IMG/VR virus record: IMGVR_UViG_3300046543_000029
Location: 1-22,105 of that record
Reading direction: 5' to 3' (one strand)
DNA: 22,105 bases
Source: a virus
The stretch's first letter is position 1; every line of letters starts with the position of its first letter. The notes below the pieces were generated by a model. It searched no databases. It had not been told where the DNA came from and worked only from the letters and a program-made list of their open reading frames with translations. Positions 2,936 through 4,710 of this stretch are shown piece after piece. Position numbers and translations under genes: made by a program.

Positions 2936-3139
2936 TTATTCTTCGCTTTCATCGTCATGGAATCCAGCACAGGTTTCCTGGTGACGCACGCAGTATCCAT
3001 ACTCTTTCGTTGCTTCCATCTTGTCCGTGTACACCTCTACTTGCTTGCCATAGGTCACATAGTAGTGTGACTCTGTGTCATTACTTGCCAGCGTTACTGT
3101 GTACTCTCCAGCTACTTCTGATTTAGCGATGATAGACAT
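2936..3139 (-). CDS. hypothetical protein, acidic, two cysteines (67 aa)
   Basis: Begins MSIIAKSEVAGEYTVTLAS and consists of alternating strand-like segments (YTVTLAS, SHYYVTYGKQVEVYT). A Cys/His-rich end follows (YGYCVRHQETCAGFHDDESEE) in which C-x6-C with flanking His could bind a metal. The ribosome site AAGGAT is well placed. It sits 17 bases downstream of the 51-residue gene and probably shares the transcript from 3448-3476. No family recognised. Confidence 0.8.
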   Translation of the reverse strand: MSIIAKSEVAGEYTVTLASNDTESHYYVTYGKQVEVYTDKMEATKEYGYCVRHQETCAGFHDDESEE

Positions 3140-3156: not shown

Positions 3157-3312
3157 TTAATGAAGGTTGAAAGCAAACTTAGCTACTGAGCCAAGGAACG
3201 TATCGGGATACACCAGGCCACCAAAGGCTGACAATGCGCAACCAAGCGTTACACACATGGTGAACATTGCGATGTGTCCAGCTTCAACGTTGGCTTTAAG
3301 CTTGCGGATCAT
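3157..3312 (-). CDS. small probable membrane protein (51 aa)
   Basis: A short frame starting ATG at 3312 with a good ribosome site (AAGGGA). The product has a basic N-terminus (MIRKLKANVEAG) followed by a hydrophobic stretch (HIAMFTMCVTLGCALSAFGG, about residues 13-32) suited to one membrane-spanning helix. A short aromatic tail ends NLH. The basic-in, hydrophobic layout predicts an inner-membrane miniprotein such as a host-takeover, superinfection-exclusion or lysis-type factor. The sequence does not say which. It is the first gene after the structured leader at 3339-3439. Confidence 0.72.
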   Translation of the reverse strand: MIRKLKANVEAGHIAMFTMCVTLGCALSAFGGLVYPDTFLGSVAKFAFNLH

Positions 3313-3338: not shown

Positions 3339-3439
3339 TGGAAGCAAGGTTTCACAAAGAGAGTAGAGAGCCTTACGTCACTCCCTGATTACTCTCGGAC
3401 ATCGGGTCTCAGTCCTAGTCCGGTACTTCCTTGCTTCCA
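3339..3439 (-). ncRNA. structured RNA leader or small RNA
   Basis: The two ends pair perfectly over 11 bp: tggaagcaagg (3339-3349) with ccttgcttcca (3429-3439). Inside, 3359-3365 pairs with 3390-3396 (7 bp, GAGAGTA/TACTCTC). Bases 3397-3400 pair with 3418-3421 or, as an alternative, 3412-3415, giving a multibranch fold. The promoter at 3448-3476 predicts a start near 3441, so the RNA would begin one or two bases before the closing helix. The 51-residue gene's ribosome site follows about 15 bases after it. It is not a tRNA (no T arm), and I do not recognise a known riboswitch or ribozyme core. It could be a stability hairpin, a regulatory leader or a processed small RNA. Confidence 0.6.
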
Positions 3440-3447
3440 TGGACTCC

Positions 3448-3476
3448 ATTAGAACATGGGAAACACAGTTGTGCAA
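3448..3476 (-). promoter_or_regulatory. leftward sigma70-like promoter of the structured RNA
   Basis: Read leftward: -35 TTGCAC (3476-3471), 17-base spacer, -10 TCTAAT (3453-3448), each 5/6 to consensus. Expected start is about 3441, directly at the base of the structured element. The -35 overlaps the GTTGTGCAA element (3468-3476), here extended to the near-palindrome GTTGTGCAAC. Confidence 0.7.
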
Positions 3477-3532
3477 CACCTTTGTGTGCAATGGATAACG
3501 AAAGATACGTTGGGGTTCCTTAGGACCCTTGG

Positions 3533-3667
3533 TTAGACCACTGTAACGTATGCAATCTCCTCACCTTCTCGCAACTTGCGCCCGGCCTTTTGGCGAGCGT
3601 GGATAAGGCTAAGTGCCTGGACTAAGAAGAAGTCGCCATTCGTTAGTGTGATCCTATAAGGCCGCAT
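3533..3667 (-). CDS. small hypothetical protein (44 aa)
   Basis: ATG at 3667 follows an AGGGA ribosome site. The product (MRPYRITLTNGDFFLVQAL, then a basic helix HARQKAGRKLREGEE, then IAYVTVV) reads as two beta strands, a helix and a final strand, a credible miniature fold. An in-frame ATG at 3706 would add 13 residues and overlap the stop of a tiny upstream frame. I prefer the inner start because of its ribosome site. It is downstream of the 3804-3832 promoter. Function unknown. Confidence 0.7.
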   Translation of the reverse strand: MRPYRITLTNGDFFLVQALSLIHARQKAGRKLREGEEIAYVTVV

Positions 3668-3705
3668 TGCTTTATCCCTATAAAGTGTAAGGTGTATGTG
3701 AAGCA

Positions 3706-3777
3706 TCAGTAACCTTTCTGCCCTCTAGGATCGTTCGCGATGTTTCTGGGTTTCCCCGAGTAATCTTGAACCGCCAT
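3706..3777 (-). CDS. possible 23-residue leader peptide
   Basis: A 23-codon frame (begins MAVQDYSGKPRNIAND) with a well-placed AGAGG ribosome site. It is the first start about 20 bases downstream of the predicted start of the 3804-3832 promoter. Its TGA overlaps an in-frame ATG of the 44-residue gene (TGATG). Position and ribosome site argue for translation. The length is too short for composition to tell. Confidence 0.3.
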   Translation of the reverse strand: MAVQDYSGKPRNIANDPRGQKGY

Positions 3778-3803
3778 CCGGTTACCTCTACTGCATGACC
3801 TCC

Positions 3804-3832
3804 AATGTACAGGTCAGGTGACTGTGTGTCAA
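3804..3832 (-). promoter_or_regulatory. leftward sigma70-like promoter, start of the early block
   Basis: Read leftward: perfect -35 TTGACA (3832-3827), 17-base spacer, -10 TACATT (3809-3804, 4/6). A GTTGTGCAA element sits just upstream at 3839-3847 instead of forming the -35 itself. Predicted start is about 3797, upstream of the 23- and 44-residue frames. It is the rightmost leftward promoter I see and lies about 70 bases from the parS-like site. Confidence 0.6.
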
Positions 3833-3838
3833 CACAAA

Positions 3839-3847
3839 GTTGTGCAA
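3839..3847. repeat. GTTGTGCAA element, one of three exact promoter-linked copies
   Basis: Exact copies on the + strand lie at 2914-2922, 3468-3476 and 3839-3847, each at a leftward promoter. On the leftward strand each continues TTGCACAAC followed within one to three bases by TGTGT or GTGT. Near copies sharing GTTGTG are at 1452-1460, 2343-2351 and 2586-2594, also upstream of genes. In two exact copies it is the -35 box and in the third it lies just above it. This suggests either descent from one promoter cassette or a regulator site. Confidence 0.7.
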
Positions 3848-3900
3848 TCCAGGGGGATTCTTTGGGGTTCCTTGGTTCGTTCGCCTGTCGAACAAACAAA

Positions 3901-3936: not shown

Positions 3937-4458
3937 GCTTTCACGCAACTATGTGCGAACGCATGGATAACCCATGGAACCCAGGGAATCCACACGATAT
4001 CCATACGCCCGCACCGATGCGCCGACACAGGCCCAACACGGCCTGGATTACCCAGGAATTCACCAGGATTCACCACTGTTCTACTCGCATTAGATACCTC
4101 ATCTAGTGCAATCCCAATGGAATCAATGACTTAGCCAGTGCTGGACCAAATGACCCAGGCAAATAGACCAGTACTTGGCCCTGCAGACATCGCTTCAAGA
4201 ACCCCGTTAAACCCTCCGCGTTGTTGTTGTTGTTCGACCTTGCGAGTGGGAGAGCCATCCCCAGGAAACCCCCGGGTACCCCCAGAATCCACCCCGTCCC
4301 CATTTACCCTAAAGACCCCCTATGGGAACCCCAGGAACCCCCTAGTTTTCCCCCAAAAGAGACCCCCGGGGGACCCCCAAGTACCCTATGTACCCTGTTG
4401 GTTCCACACAACACTGAGTGGCGTTGTCACGACCAGTGCAACATGGGGGGTAGGGGGG
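3937..4458. other. gene-free switch region with C-tract cluster
   Basis: No frame here looks coding. Translations are low-complexity Pro/Gly/Trp-rich and lack ribosome sites. Visible structure includes a hairpin pairing 4137-4144 with 4168-4175, five GTT units at 4220-4234, and an exceptional cluster of C-runs from 4259 to 4378. Those are ten runs of four or five C plus a CCC, spaced 4-12 bases apart. On the opposite strand these are G-runs compatible with several G-quadruplexes. Confidence 0.7.
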
Positions 4459-4496: not shown

Positions 4497-4507
4497 GACC
4501 CTAAGGT

Positions 4508-4567
4508 ATCTAAAGATTATCTTAAGTAATAACCGTTATTAATAACCATAGTAACTAATCTTTAGAT
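4508..4567. promoter_or_regulatory. nested dyads in the AT-rich leader of the late genes
   Basis: ATCTAAAGATTA (4508-4519) and TAATCTTTAGAT (4556-4567) are a perfect 12-bp inverted repeat. Between them lie AATAACCGTTATT (4528-4540, odd-centred dyad) and GTTATTAATAAC (4535-4546, perfect palindrome), which overlap. Further right are AACCCAAGGGTT (about 4582-4593) and a CTATAT/ATATAG dyad (about 4614-4630). The arrangement is typical of repressor, replication or phage-polymerase control regions. I do not find a convincing sigma70 promoter for the late genes here. Confidence 0.5.
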
Positions 4568-4710
4568 TCCTAAGTCTTAATAACCCAAGGGTTACCTAAA
4601 GAATCCTTAATCCCTATATATTGAATATAGGTCTATCAATATTGGTCTCATCCTTAGATGAACCATAGGTACCCTTTGGGTATCCATTAGAACCCCAAAG
4701 AACCCATACA

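Follow-up and report, generated by a model that had tools for sequence, protein, structure and literature searches.

A probable lineage-specific insertion with a predicted 5'-terminal stem in an early message of an SU10-like podovirus

The first gene of an early leftward transcription unit in this virus is preceded by a structured leader RNA that is closed by a perfect 11-bp helix starting at the predicted 5' end of the message. The window, which is the whole 22.1-kb virus record analysed here, carries this leader as a structured insertion of an ordinary kind, without conservation or an assignable RNA family. We give roughly even chances to the explanation that a lineage-specific insertion provided an early mRNA with a 5'-terminal stem, which may slow decay of the message and keeps most of the ribosome site accessible.

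Genome context and promoter

Judged by the sequences of its SU10-type portal and major capsid proteins, collar fibre protein, and transglycosylase-domain protein, the window is an SU10-like podovirus. The early genes are short and point leftward, starting at ~3.8 kb; rightward-oriented structural genes begin at 4.7 kb. A cluster of CCCCAGGAACCCCC-type repeats lies between the two blocks at 4259-4390, and an intergenic inverted repeat with 19-nt arms (89%) precedes the structural genes at 4501-4574; this repeat has z-scores of -4.3 to -4.6 on both strands and is possibly a terminator or operator. The promoter and genes of the leftward unit are as follows.

3477..3491, minus strand: second TTGCACA copy, TTGCACACAAAGGTG, directly ahead of the -35 element and conserved in contigs L030, L029, and L032
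3448..3476, minus strand: sigma70-type promoter, with -35 TTGCAC at 3476-3471, a 17-nt spacer, and -10 TCTAAT at 3453-3448
3157..3312, minus strand: small hydrophobic, membrane-like protein of 51 aa (membrane location judged from sequence), the first gene after the RNA
2936..3139, minus strand: 67-aa protein of PHROG 6500, function unknown, the second gene of the unit

IMG/VR contains 11 relatives of the 51-aa protein (82-90% identity); no Pfam or PHROG family matched the protein, and a search with it for a bacterial host found no relative in genome contigs.

The first-pass annotation had proposed a good leftward promoter that starts transcription within a few bases of the RNA, and related phages back this proposal. 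The site at 3448-3476 was overlooked by a consensus scanner because position 2 of its -10 element is C. Related IMG/VR phage contigs nevertheless contain a family of promoters with equal spacing at 19 distinct places, in which TTGCACA or TTGACAC is followed after ~17 nt by TACATT, TATATT, TCTAAT, or TATAGT; the layout in relatives is TTGCACAAC and then TACATT, TATATT, or TCTAAT, often with GGAGTCCATG next. From the promoter position and comparison with relatives, transcription is predicted to start at ~3441 and proceed leftward, and the recurrence of the family with the same spacing makes a start near this position credible. In the window, the TTGCACA motif is common to three leftward promoter-like sites (3847-3804, 3491-3448, and 2922-2894). 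The longer TTGCACAAC..TGTGT motif, present on the minus strand at 2894-2922, 3448-3491, and 3804-3847 and ahead of small genes at the 19 places in related contigs, may be an operator or activator site that these promoters have in common.

Structure of the leader RNA

Folding of the transcript from the predicted start gave the following elements.

3339..3441, minus strand: folded leader RNA, ~103 nt with 33 base pairs, closed by 11
3429..3439, minus strand: 5' arm of the closing helix, TGGAAGCAAGG, whose first seven bases (TGGAAGC) also occur in insert-free relatives
3397..3421, minus strand: inner hairpin A of the fold model, 4 + 2 bp
3359..3396, minus strand: inner hairpin B of the fold model, 6 + 7 bp with a 4-nt bulge
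3339..3349, minus strand: 3' arm of the closing helix, CCTTGCTTCCA, from inverted-repeat and fold computation

The pairing of the RNA ends over 11 perfect base pairs, seen in the first-pass annotation, was reproduced by fold computation: positions 3439-3429 pair with 3349-3339, and ten of these pairs have probabilities of ~1.0. Two inner hairpins were also recovered, with the helices of 7 bp and 4-5 bp described earlier proving to be parts of the 6 + 7 and 4 + 2 bp hairpins; a 3-bp helix completes the interior. Across the fold, most pair probabilities exceed 0.8. The leader has a minimum free energy (MFE) of -41.7 kcal/mol (z -4.2), a stability reached by 2 of 4000 dinucleotide shuffles, and ranks 19th by z among 1468 stretches from both strands of the whole window. 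Its opposite strand folds less stably (z -2.4).

Nearly all of this stability is owed to the closing 11-bp repeat. When the closing helix was left out, the interior and its hairpins were no stabler than shuffled sequences (z -0.9), and a perfect 11-bp inverted repeat with a gap of 40-120 nt is present in 32% of shuffled windows, with two in the real one. Given these results, what is statistically unusual is the closing repeat together with its placement; the notable feature of the leader is a repeat that begins at the predicted transcription start. The closing stem encloses ~79 nt with the two further hairpins and starts at nt 2-3, or 1-2 nt inside the predicted 5' end, which puts a stable stem within a few nucleotides of the 5' end of the transcript, as predicted from a start inferred from the promoter. 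The fold does not include the Shine-Dalgarno/start region, most of which stays single-stranded in the model; the start codon and some bases of the GGG are partly paired there. No U-run terminator follows the fold.

Other structured sites occur in the window. Upstream, the leader of the next promoter (3832), at 3650-3805 on the minus strand, is also long and fairly structured (~-21 kcal/mol for 90 nt); it has a GATCCTA..TAGGATC closing helix at 3732-3650 and scores weakly with the Rfam skipping-rope model (19.9 bits against a cut-off of 36.7). The minus strand at 519-680 likewise folds very stably, with energies as low as -44 kcal/mol (z ~-4.5), and has a terminator-like hairpin at 611-581.

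Comparison with related phages

The contigs closest to the window in the flanking sequence are L030/L002, L029/L004, and L032, with 87-92% identity over ~890 upstream bases (L030, L029). Alignment with them delimits one further feature.

3341..3432 (approximate), minus strand: insertion relative to L030/L032, net 91 nt, with ends ambiguous by several bases

L030, L029, and L032 keep TCTAATGGAGTCCATGGAAGC, with the -10/+1 region exact, and then jump to ACCTAA...AACCAAGGGAA, for a net length 91 nt shorter. Directly after TCTAATGGAGTCCATGGAAGC, the closest relatives run on with ACAACACCTAACGAACCAAGGG, whereas AAGG...CTTGCTTCCACCTAATACTAACCAAGGG takes this place in the window, which exceeds them by 91 nt; the junction sequence is GGAGTCCATGGAAGCAAGGAAGTACC. 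These three contigs place a different small gene first behind the promoter. Farther upstream, a cassette of a promoter and a 57-aa gene (3492-3848) is absent in L030/L029, where the equivalents of 3848 and 3492 join within ~26 bases.

The leader is also missing from the wider set of relatives. In seven (L035-L039, L041, and L042), the promoter lies 34-35 nt ahead of the same 51-aa gene and the leader MFE lies between ~0 and -1.6 kcal/mol; the promoter and the 51-aa gene are separated by one other small gene in L040 and L043-L045. Across the promoter family, leaders in relatives are 33-54 nt long (one is 71 nt) and mostly have MFEs of ~0 to -3 kcal/mol, compared to 128 nt and -42.9 kcal/mol for the window. 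The closing helix is missing, not mutated, in related phages. No conserved sequence-structure core with covariation was found, as 395 kb of related loci contain no homologue and the orthologous leaders lack the RNA; with the RNA absent both from every relative of the downstream gene and from the closest contigs, there is no covariation to test.

Judging by the three closest contigs alone, a deletion in these contigs may have occurred instead of an insertion here. Because the wider set of relatives also lacks the RNA, the most parsimonious reading of these sequences is that the ~91 nt are most likely an insertion in the lineage of the window. The slot behind the promoter varies in gene content, with different small genes in L030/L032 and in L040/L043-L045, and by this comparison of contigs the early region is one that swaps small-gene cassettes.

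Searches for other copies and known families

Rfam 15 gave no family match in the leader RNA at gathering scores, and at a permissive threshold (E<=5) the ZNFX1-AS1_2 and skipping-rope matches fell outside it and below their cut-offs, in keeping with the first-pass view that no known riboswitch or ribozyme core is recognised. ARAGORN found no tRNA or tmRNA, which bears out the remark that the fold lacks tRNA features. Neither the region nor the RNA by itself had a blastn match among phages and plasmids, exact patterns of the arms and core found no other copy in viral contigs and genomes, and a single-sequence covariance model run against the window and 40 related loci (395 kb) returned only the leader itself; the collections searched may omit records very close to the window, and copies in the same species could thus be missed. 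As to a MITE-like element, the sequence is single-copy in the window, viral contigs contain none with the same arms, and no clear target-site duplication was visible by eye.

Other candidates were rejected. Translations of the insert gave no credible match that would mark a hidden coding remnant, and a 20-codon ATG..TGA frame (MEARKYRTRTETRCPRVIRE) from the transcription start is not common to relatives. A hammerhead-like reading by eye, based on GAAAC beside the helix, was dropped because the sequence has neither the CUGAUGA core nor a cleavage-site context.

Possible origins and functions of the leader

In the explanation we favour, the short leftward unit of this SU10-like podovirus, which encodes the 51-aa hydrophobic protein and the 67-aa protein, would be driven by an early promoter of the host sigma70 type, and in the lineage of the window ~91 nt would have entered between the transcription start and the Shine-Dalgarno sequence of the first gene. 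By analogy with known stabilisers, the 11-bp stem at the 5' end of the message would shield it from RppH/RNase E-type decay, hindering 5'-end conversion and RNase E entry while translation initiation stays open. The inverted repeat itself may stem from a template-switch event, an origin suggested by the presence in one arm of bases also found in insert-free relatives.

A neutral insertion is nearly as likely as a protective one. By this account, to which we assign a substantial if tentative probability, a neutral or transient inverted repeat arose at the DNA level (by template switching, fold-back insertion, or as a small TIR element), and the RNA fold is a functionless by-product. Such an origin fits a fold whose significance derives only from the 11-bp repeat, the chance occurrence of comparable repeats in a third of shuffled windows, the absence of the RNA in all relatives, and the overlap of one arm with sequence conserved in insert-free relatives; it fits less well with a repeat that begins exactly at the predicted start and has mismatch-free arms, as expected if it is recent or maintained, and a mobile element would be at odds with the lack of a second copy in the collections searched.

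The first-pass annotation had offered a stable small RNA, a protective leader, or a sensor controlling the 51-aa protein. A protective leader is plausible, but no positive evidence backs a sensor or a stand-alone sRNA. A discrete sRNA gene, carried as a cassette in the variable early region and freed by processing, would suit a slot where relatives carry different small genes, but there is no 3' terminator at 3339 and no homologue in anything searched, making this origin improbable. We consider antitermination like that of HK022 put RNA, in which nascent RNA binds RNA polymerase and suppresses downstream termination, very improbable: the position just downstream of an early promoter and the size speak for it, but the architecture is unlike that of put, relatives with the same genes and same promoter lack the RNA, no relevant Rfam family was found at E<=5, and the next promoter (2922) is only ~0.5 kb downstream. 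It is just as doubtful that the leader represents a structured RNA cassette, put-like or stabilising and unrelated to known families, that moves to the +1 position of phage early promoters. Less probable still is a riboswitch or protein-sensing leader for the 51-aa protein; the 5' leader position and multibranched fold would be appropriate, but the RNA has no conserved core or Rfam match, is absent in relatives of the 51-aa gene, leaves the ribosome site largely unpaired outside the fold, and offers no terminator alternative.

The leader is a clear example of a candidate regulatory RNA, proposed from a single sequence, that relatives reveal as most likely a lineage-specific insertion. Should the 5' stem prove functional, it would show how a single insertion could retune a phage's early gene; if not, the case counsels caution in calling leader RNAs from single sequences.

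Comparison with known systems

Template switching has been reported to create perfect RNA stems in one event (PMC8794818). The leader resembles such hairpins in having a perfect inverted repeat in one lineage, with an arm that overlaps the sequence of relatives, and differs in its ~79-nt interior, which the proposed event leaves unexplained. The put RNAs of phage HK022 are two tandem stem-loops of ~70 nt, with putL located just downstream of the early PL promoter (PMC9378689). Like them, the leader belongs to a phage, lies immediately downstream of an early promoter, and has a similar length; unlike the side-by-side stem-loops of put, it forms one closed three-way junction, and it has no Rfam match and is missing in relatives with the same genes.

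The ompA and papA leaders of E. coli are 5'-terminal stem-loops that stabilise mRNA. Base pairing at the 5' terminus blocks RNase E (Bouvet & Belasco 1992; Emory et al. 1992, as cited in PMC3997798). Compared to these stabilisers, the leader described here is lineage-specific, has a branched interior, and has a putative effect on decay, but, like them, it has a mostly open ribosome site and a stem that starts 1-2 nt inside its predicted 5' terminus.
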